Shown here piece after piece: positions 45,880-53,333 of a DNA stretch of 64,000 nucleotides. Source of the DNA: Bradyrhizobium guangxiense (GTDB taxonomy: Bacteria > Pseudomonadota > Alphaproteobacteria > Rhizobiales > Xanthobacteraceae); NCBI RefSeq assembly GCF_004114915.1, contig NZ_CP022219.1:3192501-3256500 (forward strand). Direction: 5' to 3'. The position numbers and the translations under genes were made by a program. Position 1 is the first letter of the stretch. Each line of letters opens with the position of its first letter. The notes beneath the pieces were generated by a model that did no database searches, had not been told where the DNA came from, and saw nothing but the letters and a program-made list of their open reading frames with translations.

Positions 45880-46737
45880 ATGAGGAAGCTGTTGGCCACG
45901 GCCGCATTCCTTTTGGCGAGCACGGCTGCGCAGGCGCAGTACACCTTCGAATATGGCGGGCGCACCATCCGCATCGACCCGGACCGCGGCACGGTGCAGA
46001 TCCCCGGCGTGTACGACAACACCGGTCAGACCAAGGCCAAGAAGGCCAAGAAGAACGAGACATCCCCGGGCCAGCCGCCGCAGCAAGCCACGATCGAACC
46101 GCAAACGCCGGCTGCGTCGGCCCCAACCCCGGTCACCACGCCCCCCGCCGCCGTGCAGGCGCCCGCGCCTGCCCCTGCTGCCGCAGCAGCGCCGCCTCCG
46201 GCTCCGCCTGCGGCAGCGACCGCCAGCAACGCACCGGCCGCGACGGCCGTCTTGCCGCCACCCGCGCCCCCTGCGGCACCTGCGCCGGTCGAGCAGCAGG
46301 CGGCTCCCGCTGCGCCGTCGCCGGCCGCGACAGTGGCTGCGGCCCCCCCGGTTGCAGCCCCGCCTCCGCCGCCTGCCCCCGCTCAGGCCGCCGCCGTCGC
46401 CCCACCGGCCCCGGCAGCCGCTTCCACGCGCGATCTCAACTCACCGCTCGGGGTCTGGCTGACCGAGGAGAAGGAAGGCAAGGTCCGCATCGAGCAATGC
46501 GGCGCCAATCTGTGCGGCTATTCGGTCGACAGCAAATCGAACCAGAACGGCGAGCAGGTCCTGATCAACATGAAGCCGGGCAAGGACCAGAAGTGGTCGG
46601 GCCGTATCCTCGATCCGAACTCCGGCTCGACCTACGATTCGACGATCGCGATGAAAGGCACGGACCGTCTGCGCGTGCAGGGCTGCGCCTTCGGCGGCAT
46701 GTTCTGCGGTGGCCAGACCTGGACACGGCTCAACTGA
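45880..46737 (+). CDS. Exported DUF2147 protein with Ala/Pro linker
   Basis: A 285-residue exported protein. The signal peptide is MRKLLATAAFLLASTAAQAQ. A short N-terminal domain opens YTFEYGGRTIRI. A long low-complexity linker of Ala/Pro/Val-rich repeats (about residues 70-185) follows. The C-terminal DUF2147 domain (GVWLTEEKEGKVRIEQCGA, then LCGYSVDSKS, RLRVQGCAFGGMFCGGQTW) has several Cys. DUF2147 proteins are calycin-like envelope proteins of unknown role. The start at 45880 has aggag six bases ahead; an in-frame ATG lies at 45874. Confidence 0.8.
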   Translation: MRKLLATAAFLLASTAAQAQYTFEYGGRTIRIDPDRGTVQIPGVYDNTGQTKAKKAKKNETSPGQPPQQATIEPQTPAASAPTPVTTPPAAVQAPAPAPAAAAAPPPAPPAAATASNAPAATAVLPPPAPPAAPAPVEQQAAPAAPSPAATVAAAPPVAAPPPPPAPAQAAAVAPPAPAAASTRDLNSPLGVWLTEEKEGKVRIEQCGANLCGYSVDSKSNQNGEQVLINMKPGKDQKWSGRILDPNSGSTYDSTIAMKGTDRLRVQGCAFGGMFCGGQTWTRLN

Positions 46738-47058
46738 GCGGCTGCACCGAAGCCAACATAGCGCAGCTCCGCTGACGTTTTCGCCGCGCAACCCGCCATC
46801 GACGACACGACTGCCGAAATGGCAGTCGCTATCCCGCACCAATGAGAGCCGCATCCCCGGCGCGCGATTCAAACGCATCCATGTGAACCACTTCATACTC
46901 CACCCGCGGATGTGCTTCTAGTCTGGATTGATCGTCAGGCTATTTGCGACCTTTATACGACACAGTCGGCACCGTTTCGCCGAGACGAGTAGACCGAAAC
47001 GAGTCATTTCCCAGACATCCTTTCGGCGCCGGTCGTTGCGTAAGCGAGCGAGGTTGTT
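46738..47058. other. Promoter region of the CHAT operon, 321 bases
   Basis: No gene. It contains a hairpin, cgactgcc / ggcagtcg, at 46808-46828, probably terminating the DUF2147 gene. A possible promoter, ttgatc (46928) with tttata (46952) at 18 bases, is weak, so I mark it as a guess. A gcgagg site precedes ATG 47059. Confidence 0.4.
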
Positions 47059-49968
47059 ATGGAGGAACTCCGTGCGACGCCATCGCTAGTCTCAGGTGAC
47101 TGGGGCCCCGGCTCGCTGATGTCGGAAGAACGCATACGGCGCCATGTCATCGGCGCACTCCGAAGCCGGCAGACAAGCCTGACGACCGCGCTGCAGCCGC
47201 TGGTCACAGAGCAAGCGCGGGTGCTCGTTTCGGAATTCGGCTTCGACGCCAAGACGGTCGGCAAGATCCTGCAATCGCAAAACACCGTGCTGAGCGTCCT
47301 GTCGGATCGGTATGACGCGCTCGATGAAGCCGCGCATTACAGCGAGATCCCCTTCGTCGAACTGGCGCATGATGGCCGCATCGTCTATTCGAACGCGGCA
47401 TTCGACAAGCTTATTCCCGGCAGCCGCGGCGCTCCCTTCTCCGGTCTGTTCGGATCCCGTGCGGCCGATGTGTGGATGGCCCTCCGGGCAAATCACAACA
47501 CGAGCTTGCGCGCAGACATCCAGACCAACGAAACGGTTCGTCAGGTCAGGGTCGAGATTGGCCCGCTGCGCGACGAAGATGGCAAGCCCGGCAATTATGC
47601 ACTGCTTCTCGACCAGAGCGCCGAGCAGAGCCGCCTCGATGCCCTGCAGGATGGTGTGCTCCGAACCGACCTGACCGGCAAGATCCGGTTCGCGAACGAG
47701 CGCGCGGTGCAGGTTCTGGGATTCTCGGAATCAGAGCTCAAGGAGATGCCGCTCTCCGAGGTATTCGGCCCCGACGACGAGGGAACGACGAACCTGTTCG
47801 CCGAATGGACCACCAGGCAAACGGGGTTCTCGAGCTTCGTCCGGCTGCGCCCAAAAGACAGGCGCTCCATTCTGGCAAGGGTGAGCGGAACGCCCTACAT
47901 GGAAGCAACGAACAGCTCGGCGGGGCTGTTGGTGCTGTTCGCCCCTCTTGCAGAAGATCGCGCGCGCCAGGAGCTCAAGACGATTCTCGTCGAGCACGAC
48001 GATCCGCAAGAGATCATCGAAGCAACGCTTCAGGCGATCGGCAAGGTCATCCCGTTCGAAATGAGCATGTTCGGGGTTTACAACGATCTCAACGACTATT
48101 GGCGTGCGCTCACGATCTTTCCAAGACCCGACTGGGAGTGGAGCACGCGTTGGTTCACGGTGCCGCCGGTTGTGATCGAGTGGCTCGAGCAGGGCAAGAC
48201 GTGGGACAACAATCTGGCCGCATTCGTCGAAAGCCGCAATCCCGAGGAAAAGGACAACCCGGTAAGCAAGGCCATCATCGCCGACAAGTTCGAGTCGATG
48301 CTCGTATTGCCGATCCGCAAGGCGGGAGGCCAGTTTGGAAGCTCGCTGGCTCTGCTGTCCCGCACGCAGAAATACACGGCTTCGGATTTGCGCACACTGC
48401 AAAATCTCGGCGTCGAGGAGATATTGCAGGCCGCAAACGCCGCGATGGAACAGGCTCAGGCGCGCGCCTTGCGCAAACTCAAGGATGATCTGAACAAGGC
48501 TCCGAGTGCACGCGCCATCGCCGAGCTGCTCGCCACGGGCGCCACGAAATGCCTGGGCTGGGAATATGTCGGCGTGTTCCGGGTCGATCGTCTGCGCGGC
48601 AAGTTCGTCCTCGTCGCCGAACACGTCAAGAACGACCGCAACCTGCTTGTGAAAGCAGCCGACCGCAAGGCCGAATACACCCAGGAGCTGTCCAGCGGCA
48701 TGCTCGGCAGCTGCCTGGCCGCGCGGGATATCCTCGTCGTTCCCGACATCAGCGATGCCGAGAGCAATTACGGCTTCATCAAGACCGCACCCGATCAACG
48801 ATCGGCCATGACTGTGCCCCTGTTCGTGAACGGCAAGATCGAACTGATCCTGGACATGGAATCATCGGAGCTGAACGCGTTCCGTGGACCCGATCGCGAC
48901 GCGGCAAGTGGCCTCGCCGCCGATTGCGAACAGATCTTTGCGGCTCGCTGGCACGAAGCGATCGAGCACGCGCTCATGAACAGGATCGAGCAGGCGGCCG
49001 TCATCGTCGACGCCGTGGGGTCGATCTGCCACATGAACGGTGCAGCCATGAGCATCTTCGGCCAGACGCGCGACAAGAAGCTCTCGTCATTTGGTGCCCG
49101 GGACGAGGATTCGAGACAACTGTCGGAATCCGGGATTCAGCACCGTCTTCGCCTCCATTTGTCGATCGGCGATGCACCGCGCACCGAACTGGCTGTTCTG
49201 GCAAATCGCGAGCCGCTAAACGACGACTATGGTCATCAGCTCTGGCTGTTCACCAGCCTTGCCGATCAAAGTCGGGAGAGCGACTGGGGCTATCTGGAGG
49301 AGACCGTCACGGCGGTCGCGCGCGAGACGCGCGCCCCGCTGCTGATGGCCGACGGCCTGCTGCGCGGCGCCGCATCGCTCTTGAGCAACCCGGACCTCAT
49401 GAGAAATTGCGCCGATCTGCTCGAGCAGGCCGCCAATCACCTGCTCAGGGCCGATCTCACGTTCGAGCGTCTGTCCGACCGTCTGACCGTGCAGCAAGCT
49501 CCGCAGGAGGCGCCCGAGCAATTTGACGTGTTGGATGTGCTCTATCACGAGATCGAGGGCCTTCCGGTCGAAGATCGCGACGCGATCCACATCGTCGACG
49601 AGATTGCGACCCGCCGCCCCTTGCTGGTCAACGGTTGGACGAAGCGGTTGAGCTTTGCGTTTCGTTCCGCCCTCAGCTCCCTGCTGTTGTTGCGCATTAC
49701 GCCGAGCGACAAGCTGACCGTGACCATCGCGGAACGGCCGCCGCATCACTTCTCGGTGTCCATGCGCTTGCCCGCGACGATCGCCGACACGCTGGCTGCG
49801 GCGGCGGACCCAATCGAGCAGAGCCAGCACCGGGCCCGACAGATGGCCAGCGTCGCGGTCGAGGCGATACGCAAGACTGCCGAGCAGCACGACGGCACTC
49901 TGGCCGATTTGGACGGCGCGGGCTTCGAGTTCGACCTGCCATTGTGCGCGCAGGAGGCACCAACATGA
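47059..49968 (+). CDS. PAS/GAF multi-domain sensor with degenerate histidine-kinase core
   Basis: A 969-residue soluble protein with no membrane helix. Order: PAS near 95-185 (FVELAHDGRIVYSNAAFDK), PAS 195-300 (GVLRTDLTGKIRFANERA), GAF 305-460, GAF 475-635, PAS 640-735 (AVIVDAVGSICHMNGAAM), then a kinase-like region at 740-962. In the H-box, ARETRAPLL stands where kinases have SHELRTPL, so the phospho-accepting His is Arg755. The ATP-binding N and G boxes are not recognisable, although the very end (GTLADLDGAGFEFDLP) still looks like the last strand of an ATPase domain. It is probably a pseudokinase that relays signals by binding. Its stop overlaps the CHAT gene's start by four bases. Confidence 0.85.
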   Translation: MEELRATPSLVSGDWGPGSLMSEERIRRHVIGALRSRQTSLTTALQPLVTEQARVLVSEFGFDAKTVGKILQSQNTVLSVLSDRYDALDEAAHYSEIPFVELAHDGRIVYSNAAFDKLIPGSRGAPFSGLFGSRAADVWMALRANHNTSLRADIQTNETVRQVRVEIGPLRDEDGKPGNYALLLDQSAEQSRLDALQDGVLRTDLTGKIRFANERAVQVLGFSESELKEMPLSEVFGPDDEGTTNLFAEWTTRQTGFSSFVRLRPKDRRSILARVSGTPYMEATNSSAGLLVLFAPLAEDRARQELKTILVEHDDPQEIIEATLQAIGKVIPFEMSMFGVYNDLNDYWRALTIFPRPDWEWSTRWFTVPPVVIEWLEQGKTWDNNLAAFVESRNPEEKDNPVSKAIIADKFESMLVLPIRKAGGQFGSSLALLSRTQKYTASDLRTLQNLGVEEILQAANAAMEQAQARALRKLKDDLNKAPSARAIAELLATGATKCLGWEYVGVFRVDRLRGKFVLVAEHVKNDRNLLVKAADRKAEYTQELSSGMLGSCLAARDILVVPDISDAESNYGFIKTAPDQRSAMTVPLFVNGKIELILDMESSELNAFRGPDRDAASGLAADCEQIFAARWHEAIEHALMNRIEQAAVIVDAVGSICHMNGAAMSIFGQTRDKKLSSFGARDEDSRQLSESGIQHRLRLHLSIGDAPRTELAVLANREPLNDDYGHQLWLFTSLADQSRESDWGYLEETVTAVARETRAPLLMADGLLRGAASLLSNPDLMRNCADLLEQAANHLLRADLTFERLSDRLTVQQAPQEAPEQFDVLDVLYHEIEGLPVEDRDAIHIVDEIATRRPLLVNGWTKRLSFAFRSALSSLLLLRITPSDKLTVTIAERPPHHFSVSMRLPATIADTLAAAADPIEQSQHRARQMASVAVEAIRKTAEQHDGTLADLDGAGFEFDLPLCAQEAPT

Positions 49969-51539
49969 CAGCAAGGATTGCTATCGCCACCGCCGAGCCA
50001 AGCATGTTCGAAACGCTGCGGGCACATCTGCTCGCGGCGGGAGTGACCGTGGAGGACTTGTATGACAAGCCTCTGACGACCCCGGACCAGACGAGCGAGT
50101 GGCTCGTCGCGAATGAAACCGAATTGCTCGTGCTCGATGCCCGGTTGCCGACCGACCCGAACACCGCCTACGACTCACGCACGACGTATGGCGCGAAGCG
50201 CGTTCTCAACACCGTGCTGGCGCAGGATCCGCACACCTCCGTGCTGGTCATGGCCCCTTCGTTGGGGACCTGCGTGGACCTCGACGAGGATTGCAGAGCA
50301 GTCGGCAATGCGTTGATCCTGCCGATGGATACGCTGCAGTTGCACCGGCATCGGATCTTGCGCCCGTTCATTGCGACGCTCACCGGCCGTCCCGACGAGA
50401 CGGACGCCATTCCCGGCGCGTTCCGCGTGATCGAGATCGAGATCCACAGCGCCAAGGTGGAATGCCGGCTCGGAACGGGTGAAGACGGCTCGCCGATGCT
50501 TCGCTGGAACACCATCAGCGATCTCGATGACCTCAAGTCCGCCGCTCAAACCTATGCACGCGATGAGATGCCGCCGACCAACTGGCTCGGCCAGACCCGG
50601 GATGTCGGAACACGCCTGTTCAAGAGCTTCGTCGTCAAGGCCATCGGCGAACATCTGTTCTCGCAGATCGAGAAGTCCGCGGGCGGACTTGTGGGACTGT
50701 CGTTCCGGTTCGTCATCAGCGATGCCGGCTTCTACTCGGTGCCCTTCGAGGCGAGCGTGCGTTATCTCTCGGAGGAAAATGGGCCGTTCGTGCTGCTCTA
50801 TGCGCCGATTGTCCGGCGCATTCCGTCCTTCGTCCGTGGAAGGACCAGTGAGCGGGCGCGGATCAGACCGGGCGCGAAAATGATGTTCGTTCGCTCTCAG
50901 ATCGGCGAACATCCCGACCTGAAGCTCGACAGCGCGATCTGCGACGGCAAGAAGTTCGACAAGCTCGGCAATATCGATATCGAGCTGGATCACGTGAAGA
51001 CGCTCGGCGCCCAAGGCCATTTCGATCTGAGGATCGTCAACCTGTCGGACGCTCCTCCGGGCGAGGCCGCCCCCTATCTGCTGAAGCAGCTCGACGCGTT
51101 TCGGCCGACCATCCTCCACTACGCCGGGCACGCCTGGAGCGACGGCCAGAAAACCGCGACCCTCGTCCTGCCCGGAATGCAACCGGAGCAGGCCGTCGGC
51201 CTGAAGCTCGACAGGGTTGCGGCATCGGACGGCCTGTCAGCGACCACGCTGGTTTACCTCTCGGCCTGCCGCGGCATCTCCAAGGGCTGCGTTCAGCAAC
51301 TGGTGATGAATGGGATTCCCTATGCTTTGGGCTTCCGATGGAATGTCGAGGACGAACGCGCGCCGCAGTTCGCCAGGGAGTTCTATGACGAACTCTACAA
51401 GACGCGGTCCGTGTGCCTGGCGTTCCGCAAAGCGTGTCGCGCATCCTGGGAAAGCCTGAAATACGACGACGAAAGCCCGATCTGGCTGTCGCCGATCCTG
51501 CTGGCGCAGTCGACCGATTGGGCGGCTCGCTGCCAGTGA
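49965..51539 (+). CDS. Receiver-like/CHAT caspase-like protease
   Basis: A 524-residue protein. Residues 1-140 look like a receiver fold (ARIAIATAEPSMFETLRAHL; LVLDARLP with Asp58), but the acidic pair is missing and the last-strand Lys is replaced (LILPMD), so phosphorylation is doubtful. Residues about 360-515 are a CHAT domain: LHYAGHAW (His385, His389) and VYLSACRG (Cys435) form the caspase-like His/Cys dyad, followed by YALGFRWNVEDERA. Between them lies an uncharacterised beta-rich part (residues 150-350). The start overlaps the sensor stop (ATGA) with aggaggcac ahead. The CHAT fold is confident; the target is unknown. Confidence 0.85.
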   Translation: MTARIAIATAEPSMFETLRAHLLAAGVTVEDLYDKPLTTPDQTSEWLVANETELLVLDARLPTDPNTAYDSRTTYGAKRVLNTVLAQDPHTSVLVMAPSLGTCVDLDEDCRAVGNALILPMDTLQLHRHRILRPFIATLTGRPDETDAIPGAFRVIEIEIHSAKVECRLGTGEDGSPMLRWNTISDLDDLKSAAQTYARDEMPPTNWLGQTRDVGTRLFKSFVVKAIGEHLFSQIEKSAGGLVGLSFRFVISDAGFYSVPFEASVRYLSEENGPFVLLYAPIVRRIPSFVRGRTSERARIRPGAKMMFVRSQIGEHPDLKLDSAICDGKKFDKLGNIDIELDHVKTLGAQGHFDLRIVNLSDAPPGEAAPYLLKQLDAFRPTILHYAGHAWSDGQKTATLVLPGMQPEQAVGLKLDRVAASDGLSATTLVYLSACRGISKGCVQQLVMNGIPYALGFRWNVEDERAPQFAREFYDELYKTRSVCLAFRKACRASWESLKYDDESPIWLSPILLAQSTDWAARCQ

Positions 51540-51562
51540 GCAGCTCGTAGTGGACGAACGTC

Positions 51563-52795
51563 ATGACAGTCTGGGCCACACTCAAGAACGTCGTCGAGCA
51601 CGGGGCGAGCCGCGAGCTGCGGCGCCCTTATGTCGGCTACGTCGCTTCGACCGGTAGCAATGCAGCGACGGCGGGACAGGCCTTCGTGCCCGAAGCGAGC
51701 TATTTCGGCGTGCGCATGGTCGAGATGGGTTTGCGCGAGGGCGGCAAGTTCTTCAGCTCGTTCCTCCCGCTCGGCGTCGTGCTCACCGAGTTCAGTTTCG
51801 GCGACGGGCGGCAGCGCCGGCCCACGATCTTGAGCAATGACGAGATCGCCGCTCAGCTGAAGGGAGCCGGTGCCGCGCCAGGTTATGTCGATTTCAAGAA
51901 TATCTACGCGGTCCGGCGCGCGCCGATGAAGCAGGACAATCTGTCTCTGTTCGTCGGGCTCTTCCGTCTTCCGTTTCACGACGTCGCCCAGCAGGTCCTG
52001 CAATTGGCCGCCGACCTGACCACGCAGACCGGGCTCGCGCCGGGTGTCTCCGACGGGCTGCGTGTGGCTGAAAAGATCTACGACCGGGTCGCCGGCCTGT
52101 TCGGACTCAACATCGTCACGCCCCTGTTCTCCTATGCCGACGGCAACGCGCTTGGCCGCAGCGGCTATCTGCTGGTCGCGGGTTCCGACCTCGAGGAAAC
52201 GGCGGCCAAGCGGCTGGTGGTGACCGACGACCGATTGCTGCTGGACGGCCAGCGCGTGTCGGGACTGGACTATTGCCTCCTTGCCATCGAGTTCACGGCC
52301 AGCCTGCTGCCCGACGGGCCGGACACGATCAATCCTCTCACGCAACTCGGATTTCATCGACACTGGCAGGGTGTCGCAAGCAGCATCATGAAGCGGGAGT
52401 TGGAGCAAGCGGACGAACAGATGTTGACGCTGCGCGCCGAGGTGATCACCTCGCCCGAGCTTGCCGAAAACGATCGTCTGGTGGCGATCGGCGCCTACCA
52501 GACCAGCTACGACAAGCTGGTGGAGCGCGTGACCCCGAGAAACGCTCACCGCGGCTGGGAGAAGGCACTTCTGCCTGACCCCAACGACAAGACGATCATC
52601 AAGCCGGGCGTGACCGAGGTCCTGAAGGGCATGCAAATCCGCCTGCTCATCAAGGGCGCCCCGGAGGATCCCGACAAGCTGTTCGCGTCAGAGGCCTTCG
52701 CACTGCGAACAACGGTCGGCAAAGCCGCTCTGGCCGACTCCGACTCCGCCGTCGCGCTGGCGCGCGTGATCGATCGCGCCGCGGCAACAAGGTGA
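51563..52795 (+). CDS. CHAT-operon protein of unknown family
   Basis: A 410-residue soluble protein; I do not recognise a family. It has no signal peptide, membrane helix or Cys-rich cluster. The N-terminal third looks beta-rich (RPYVGYVAS, FLPLGVVLTEFSFGDG, VDFKNIYAVRR). A helical stretch follows (VAQQVLQLAADLTTQTG), then a strand-rich core (SGYLLVAGSDLEETAAKRL, LDYCLLAIEFTASL), helical blocks and a conserved-looking end (TEVLKGMQIRLLIKG). It starts 23 bases after the CHAT gene in the same transcription unit, so it is probably the substrate, inhibitor or effector of the protease. This is inference from position. Confidence 0.6.
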   Translation: MTVWATLKNVVEHGASRELRRPYVGYVASTGSNAATAGQAFVPEASYFGVRMVEMGLREGGKFFSSFLPLGVVLTEFSFGDGRQRRPTILSNDEIAAQLKGAGAAPGYVDFKNIYAVRRAPMKQDNLSLFVGLFRLPFHDVAQQVLQLAADLTTQTGLAPGVSDGLRVAEKIYDRVAGLFGLNIVTPLFSYADGNALGRSGYLLVAGSDLEETAAKRLVVTDDRLLLDGQRVSGLDYCLLAIEFTASLLPDGPDTINPLTQLGFHRHWQGVASSIMKRELEQADEQMLTLRAEVITSPELAENDRLVAIGAYQTSYDKLVERVTPRNAHRGWEKALLPDPNDKTIIKPGVTEVLKGMQIRLLIKGAPEDPDKLFASEAFALRTTVGKAALADSDSAVALARVIDRAAATR

Positions 52796-52869
52796 TGGCA
52801 CCGGCTCCGGCGCGTGGCGAGGCCCGCTGTGCACGGGCACCTGGACGGCGGAGACGATGTAAGTCGCCG

Positions 52870-52920
52870 TGTCCCGGCTCGGCGACGCATCGCCACCGGC
52901 GATGCGTCTTGTCCGGGACA
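52870..52920. terminator. Large double palindrome, convergent terminator or repeat
   Basis: An 11-base perfect inner stem gacgcatcgcc / ggcgatgcgtc (loop acc) is nested in an outer pair tgtcccgg / ccgggaca. It lies between the CHAT operon and the convergent cupin gene, so it can stop transcription from both sides. Its size suggests it may also be a dispersed repeat. Confidence 0.7.
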
Positions 52921-52928
52921 TGACAGCC

Positions 52929-53333
52929 TTAGCCGAGCGGCGCGCCGTACTCCGCGTCCGTCACCGGCTCCAGCCAGGTCGAGTAGTTGCCGTCGAGCGC
53001 TTCCTGCATGGCGATGTGGCACATGGCGTTGGTTGGCGATGCGCCGTGCCAGTGCACTTCACCCGGCGGAATCCAGACGGTGTCGCCGGGACGGATTTCC
53101 TGGACCGGTCCACCCTTGGTCTGAACGCGGCCGACGCCTGAGATCACGTAGAGCGTCTGGCCGAGCGGATGGTGGTGCCAGTTGGTGCGCGCACCCGGCT
53201 CGAATGCGACGCGCGAGACGTTCAGCCGCGCAGGTGCCGGGGCCATGTTGATGGGATCCTGCAACACGGTGCCGGTGAAGTGTTCCTTCGGCGCGCGGCG
53301 GGTCGGCCGCGTGCCGGCGAGCGTGATATCCAT
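52929..53333 (-). CDS. Cupin-domain protein
   Basis: A 134-residue single-domain cupin, a beta-barrel that binds a metal. Ligand motifs are GARTNWHHHPLGQTLYV and PPGEVHWHGAS. The architecture resembles short cupins of the hydroxynitrile-lyase-like or quercetinase-like groups, which act on small carbonyl or aromatic substrates. ATG 53333 has aaggaaacgaggta ahead. The RraA-family gene lies 23 bases upstream on the same strand, so they are probably co-transcribed. Confidence 0.87.
   Translation of the reverse strand: MDITLAGTRPTRRAPKEHFTGTVLQDPINMAPAPARLNVSRVAFEPGARTNWHHHPLGQTLYVISGVGRVQTKGGPVQEIRPGDTVWIPPGEVHWHGASPTNAMCHIAMQEALDGNYSTWLEPVTDAEYGAPLG

Follow-up and report, generated by a model that had tools for sequence, protein, structure and literature searches.

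In bacterial gasdermin systems a caspase-like protease encoded next door cleaves the gasdermin after a Leu or an Arg, according to the parts of the account covered here (PMC9612521), and the covered parts of a description of Craspase report that its cleavage sites are not conserved (PMC11106740). Related conflict systems are described in Kaur 2020 (PMC7159879) and Kaur 2021 (PMC8195603), whose covered portions do not contain the one considered below. This is a three-gene unit of a PAS/GAF sensor, a CHAT protease and an orphan partner in the 8.2-Mb, Bradyrhizobium-type genome of Bradyrhizobium guangxiense. It lies within a 64,000-nucleotide stretch, hereafter the window (G000:C1:3192501-3256500). 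The original prediction, made from the sequence alone, held that no described system with this gene set was known. Searching by title and abstract opening, we found no description that combines a CHAT protease and a PAS/GAF sensor in a literature set that mostly excluded subscription journals and bioRxiv, in agreement with that statement. We favor the reading, at a probability of about 0.43, that the unit is a signal-gated proteolytic switch: a degenerate two-component pair would gate a CHAT protease that cuts the partner, ending in dormancy or death. Its role may be one of self-destruction, defence or conflict.

The sensor-CHAT core and its third gene

The three open reading frames lie on the forward (+) strand, as do all their features given below, at 47059-49968, 49965-51539 and 51563-52795, just as first noted. 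They encode the sensor (969 amino acids, P0003), the CHAT protease (524 amino acids, P0001) and the orphan partner (410 amino acids, P0002). The sensor stop and the CHAT start share an ATGA overlap, and the orphan gene begins after a 23-base gap behind the CHAT gene; coordinates, overlap and gap support the earlier view that the three genes form one unit. A scan of 46700-53100 found no sigma-70-like promoter, and 46600-53100 held no known RNA element at gathering score. Against two related loci, L006 and L005, the ratio of nonsynonymous to synonymous change (dN/dS), computed by our own script and with synonymous change against L006 near saturation, was 0.13 and 0.15 for the sensor, 0.17 and 0.12 for CHAT, and 0.15 and 0.13 for the orphan. 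By these ratios, all three genes are under purifying selection. The CHAT protein is 90-91% identical to that of named relatives.

Is the third gene a fixed part of the unit? Twelve fetched loci carry the sensor and CHAT genes together. In eight of them the third gene belongs to the orphan family, in the order sensor-CHAT-orphan: the window, L004, L005, L006, L024, L026, L032 and the Rhizobium plasmid L029, a set that includes two divergent loci of the genus as well as the plasmid. These loci were reached with differing queries, and 8/12 is not an unbiased rate. Three loci have another same-strand gene: L023 (6345-9826, - strand) carries an LCAT-like lipase in the third-gene slot and then a second CHAT gene with a TCAD7 domain, L038 a pentapeptide-repeat protein and L039 an S8 peptidase. 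At the twelfth, L025, no same-strand gene directly follows CHAT, and metallo-beta-lactamase and S8 peptidase genes are convergent. At a thirteenth locus, G152, the sensor is followed in the CHAT position by a protein that begins like a receiver and is cut off by the end of the fetched stretch. The proposal that a partner is encoded beside the protease agrees with the eight orphan-bearing loci. The expectation that all three genes co-occur in conserved order stood at those eight and failed at the other four, and orphan homologues also occur without the sensor. Because the third gene varies among the 12 loci, the core of the system, judged from gene content, is the sensor-CHAT pair, and its partner is exchangeable.

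The pair itself is sparsely distributed. A CHAT query matched 12 of 146 genus genomes, and the sensor was present in the fetched stretches of eight of these. CHAT matches in G033 (3.4 kb only), G095, G128 and G145 had no sensor match in the fetched stretches and were not counted as the system. With the sensor as query, a CHAT gene was next in 3/3 plasmid records. Records common to the protein searches, matched by length and suggestive only, numbered 9 for CHAT and orphan, 11 for CHAT and sensor and 4 for all three.

Four loci with orphan relatives and no sensor were fetched, and at three of them a peptidase or STAND gene adjoins the relative. On a Pseudanabaena plasmid the neighbor is a caspase gene, and upstream lie MoxR and an AAA-caspase fusion; in Sporomusa it is a papain-like peptidase and in G937 an nSTAND1 NTPase. 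The Prosthecochloris relative stands beside unknown genes.

Two loci show further features. At L032 (9690-11181, - strand) the CHAT gene is split into two overlapping open reading frames, the sensor and orphan genes are open, and recombinase- or insertion sequence (IS)-like frames lie around them, as judged by eye. At L039 (2307-18550), on Sinorhizobium meliloti plasmid pCpl, genes for a DNA/RNA non-specific endonuclease, sensor, CHAT, S8 and a trypsin-like protein share one strand.

Sensor and protease

Pfam matches and the secondary structure of a model (mean predicted local distance difference test, pLDDT, 82.7) give the sensor, at 47059..49968, the order N-terminal helices, PAS, PAS, GAF, GAF, PAS, DHp-like hairpin and CA-like domain; the Pfam matches are to PAS and GAF. 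The model has long helices at residues 734-774 and 778-799 (on to 812), followed by an alpha/beta domain, a C-terminal layout that reads as that of a histidine kinase. Neither HisKA nor HATPase had a Pfam match in the sensor at an E value of 1. We aligned the C-terminal profile with the DHp/CA parts of L045, L048, L043, L047, L054 and others, taken as kinases by their motifs. From this H-box alignment and column counts, the DHp-like hairpin spans residues 734-812 (49258..49494), and Arg755 (49321-49323) falls on the phospho-His of these proteins. Among 27 sensors, that column holds Arg in 19, Gln in 6, Ala in 2 and His in none. The CA (ATPase-like) domain, residues 820-961 (49516..49941), is degenerate: no N-box Asn occurs in columns 864-877 of the 27 sensors, and DxGxG is found in 0/27 within the last 190 residues. 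Besides the window protein and five locus proteins, the alignment (A4) took in 21 of the 28 sensor hits, the dropped rows being mainly short or near-identical. One protein, P0115, matches the H-box pattern somewhere in its whole length and has no His in the DHp column. The C-terminal profile matched 141 of 372 genomes, among which only the window's own and G152 (E value 2.7e-43) stand out, the next best being 2.7e-11; the weaker matches were not counted, and nine were aligned. We conclude that the sensor is probably a histidine-kinase scaffold without kinase chemistry, as the term pseudokinase in the original prediction implied.

Structural comparison with the PDB covered mainly residues 346-641, outside the kinase-like part, and confirmed GAF folds there. 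As to the light-type sensing suggested earlier, the list of fold matches holds many phytochrome GAF rows and other GAFs too. For the second GAF (48511-48936) the best structural match is free methionine-R-sulfoxide reductase (fRMsr). Cys552 and Cys623 of the sensor are present in 19/27 and 22/27 rows, respectively.

The protease gene (49965..51539) encodes a CHAT domain at 50709..51500 (PF12770, 1.3e-16), the only Pfam domain found in P0001 at an E value of 1. The catalytic pair named in the original prediction is well kept: His389 (51129-51131) occurs in 31/31 rows and Cys435 (51267-51269) in 30/31. The alignment (A2) held 30 of 32 CHAT hits and the window protein, with mainly short or near-identical rows dropped. 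The sole row without Cys435, P0101, no longer follows the family beyond LVYLSA and seems to be a chimera. Cys491 is conserved like the catalytic Cys, in 30/31 rows. Elsewhere in the host genome, outside the window, the CHAT profile has two more matches, at G000:C1:233107-234129 (L001, 180 bits) and 5080558-5080986 (L003, 24.5 bits).

The N-terminal domain of the protease (49965..50339) had been called receiver-like. It has no receiver match in Pfam, and Asp58 (50136-50138) is conserved in 30/30 letters; no Lys stands at the expected place, as judged by eye. A distant relative, P0103, has a Response_reg match (Pfam, 1.7e-21) in the N-terminal position and then CHAT. Comparison by hhalign with three receivers depended on the row set: the close family gave 17.5%, the same family with six divergent rows added 76.6%, and those six by themselves 1.4%, while an unrelated control gave 0.3%. 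These observations favor the earlier description, and we assign a degenerate receiver-like domain with moderate confidence.

Might phosphotransfer still operate, with another kinase phosphorylating Asp58? The invariance of this residue and the intact-looking receiver fused to CHAT in P0103 speak for such a scheme. Against it, the Lys is absent, the first strand of most rows carries a single acidic residue, by eye no such Asp is present in the L025 and L029 CHAT proteins, and the sensor has neither the His nor the ATP motifs. We consider continued phosphotransfer highly improbable. The loss of kinase chemistry, the retained scaffold and the adjoining receiver-like protease suggest that the sensor gates the protease by contact.

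The partner and its possible fate

The orphan partner (51563..52795) has no sequence family in Pfam or NCBIfam at an E value of 1, and the best match among PDB sequences has an E value of 1.9. Its model (ma967faaad0c4; mean pLDDT 76.6, below 50 at residues 3-18, 152-170 and 175-181) reads as a C2-like beta-sandwich with helices at two places, a low-confidence insertion and the C-terminal part. Known C2-carrying proteins make up 47 of the 50 listed VIA rows for this model, and the best Foldseek E value is 6e-3. There is hence moderate evidence, from the model, for a C2-like fold.

Column entropy and pLDDT mark a variable-length linker at residues 324-347 (52532..52603), whose ten-residue blocks have pLDDT values of 59-69. 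Within it, Arg330 (52550-52552) is near-invariant, present in 41/44 rows, and at 0.36 bits is the lowest-entropy column of 318-350; we regard it as a candidate cleavage site. The rows (alignment A1) are 43 of 68 orphan hits and the window protein, after mainly short or near-identical rows were dropped. The orphan profile matched 1/385 class, 2/296 family and 2/398 phylum genomes, its own included each time; these samples overlap, and with few candidates scored per genome distant members may escape. Phage-borne relatives of the orphan were sought in 50,697 phage records, which gave no match.

Two observations, the conservation of Arg330 and the repeated pairing with cysteine peptidases, suggest processing of the partner. 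An outcome at the membrane is suggested by the C2-like fold and by the lipase that occupies the same slot elsewhere. The partner could also be an adaptor or scaffold rather than a substrate, bringing the CHAT protease to the membrane or to other substrates, so that cell proteins are cut. C2 domains are usually targeting modules, the unlike peptidases and the nSTAND1 NTPase beside orphan relatives are the neighbors expected of an adaptor, and the sensor-CHAT pair is also found with other third genes. Against this, a processing site accounts more readily for a near-invariant Arg where the rest of the linker is variable and of low confidence, and we judge an adaptor role rather unlikely.

The proteolytic switch that we favor would run as follows. 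The PAS/GAF sensor, retaining its dimerization and ATPase-like scaffold, would contact the CHAT protease at its receiver-like domain, in the manner of a kinase and its receiver, either holding the enzyme off or switching it on allosterically. Once active, the enzyme would cleave the partner in the linker, with the position after Arg330 the likeliest, and so detach the last helices from the C2-like part. The freed C2-like part may then act at membranes, and the result would be dormancy or death of the infected or stressed cell. At other loci a different gene (lipase-like, subtilisin or pentapeptide protein) is plugged into the same sensor-protease core. Directly supported by sequence or model are the gene unit, the lost kinase residues, the intact catalytic dyad, the C2-like model, the conservation of Arg330 and the exchange of the third gene. 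Two points lower confidence in the switch: the window, L004, L005, L006 and L024 are close relatives, which reduces the eight three-gene loci to about four independent cases, and three of the 50 VIA rows are not assignable to C2 proteins.

The accessory segment and known systems

Comparison by blastn with loci that lack the operon delimits an accessory segment at 46739..52800 (no strand assigned). The downstream cupin protein was matched in 60/60 genus genomes. We examined the best 30 cupin loci returned; two carry the operon (the window's own and G005) and 28 do not. A DUF2147-like gene lies upstream, within 1.5 kb of the cupin gene, in 21 of these 28 and was not seen in the fetched stretch of the other seven. 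We compared 14 of the 21 empty-site loci with the window. Homology on the left stops at 46727-46743, the stop of the upstream gene, in 14/14. On the right it restarts at 52798-52803, just past the orphan stop, in 11/14, and later in L062, L069 and L074 (at 52882, 52911 and 52927). From these sharp edges we conclude that the accessory piece is exactly the three genes and about 320 bp upstream.

A strong double palindrome had been proposed as the end of the operon. The structure is real: a nested inverted repeat lies at 52870..52920 (no strand assigned), between convergent genes, and the surrounding 146 bases have a folding z score of -2.78, with 4/200 shuffles folding as well. Empty-site homology spans it in 9/14 loci, partly in two and not in three. 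Because flank homology runs through it in those nine, the repeat is not operon-specific and belongs to the shared ancestral flank. A terminator scan, which demands a T-run, does not list it, and we reject it as the operon terminator. A 63-base search found no second copy in the genome.

As originally stated, no transposase was seen by eye among the large open reading frames around the unit; relatives lie on plasmids or beside IS genes. As for known defence systems, PADLOC returned zero matches for the three proteins. Could the unit instead serve stress- or development-linked proteolysis, with PAS/GAF sensing of redox state, oxygen or a metabolite setting off the processing of a regulator associated with the membrane? 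Small molecules are what PAS/GAF sensors typically detect, and the structural resemblance of the second GAF to fRMsr fits such a role, as do the absence of phage records matching the orphan and the PADLOC result. However, the distribution is patchy and accessory, with the sensor-CHAT pair in 8/146 genus genomes, and the plasmid and IS contexts, the other third genes and the kin in caspase, MoxR and STAND neighborhoods resemble conflict systems. We consider a nondefensive role of this kind unlikely.

Of described conflict systems, the MoxR-vWA ternary, NucA-peptidase and STAND systems of the Kaur papers, in the parts covered, resemble this unit in being peptidase cascades whose effectors can be exchanged. 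MoxR, nSTAND1, TCAD7, S8 or DNA/RNA non-specific endonuclease genes occur at loci related to the unit, and the pCpl stretch resembles the NucA-peptidase systems (PMC7159879). In contrast, the three proteins here have no MoxR, vWA or STAND domain in a Pfam scan, a profile scan that covered the unit's genes only.

Craspase (type III-E gRAMP, TPR-CHAT and Csx30), as covered (PMC11106740), is likewise a gated CHAT protease with a protein substrate. No TPR was found in the CHAT protein here by Pfam at an E value of 1, its gene's neighbor encodes a PAS/GAF pseudokinase sensor, and the candidate site is conserved whereas those of Craspase vary.

Two-component systems share with this unit a PAS/GAF sensor with a DHp/CA-like module and an adjoining gene for a receiver-like protein. 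They differ in that the phospho-His, the N-box Asn and DxGxG are lost here and the output domain is a protease. We offer, quite tentatively, a stronger version: a phosphorylation-free two-component system in which a pseudo-histidine kinase would act through a degenerate receiver to gate a CHAT protease that would activate a swappable C2-fold membrane effector by a cut after the conserved Arg, forming a death pathway parallel to that of the gasdermins. If true, a very common bacterial signaling scaffold would have lost its chemistry and taken on the control of a caspase-like protease, and the C2-like family would join the proteins on which bacterial caspase relatives may act. The predicted Arg330 cut and the exchangeable third gene make the model directly testable.

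The gasdermin systems themselves, in the account covered (PMC9612521), set a caspase-like protease (CHAT or other) beside a membrane-acting partner that it cuts after one of the two residues named above. The orphan has no gasdermin match in Pfam, and its fold matches are mostly C2 proteins. Our partner models as C2-like; its candidate site lies 80 residues from the C-terminus, compared with about 20 in bacterial gasdermins; and the controlling gene is a PAS/GAF pseudokinase.

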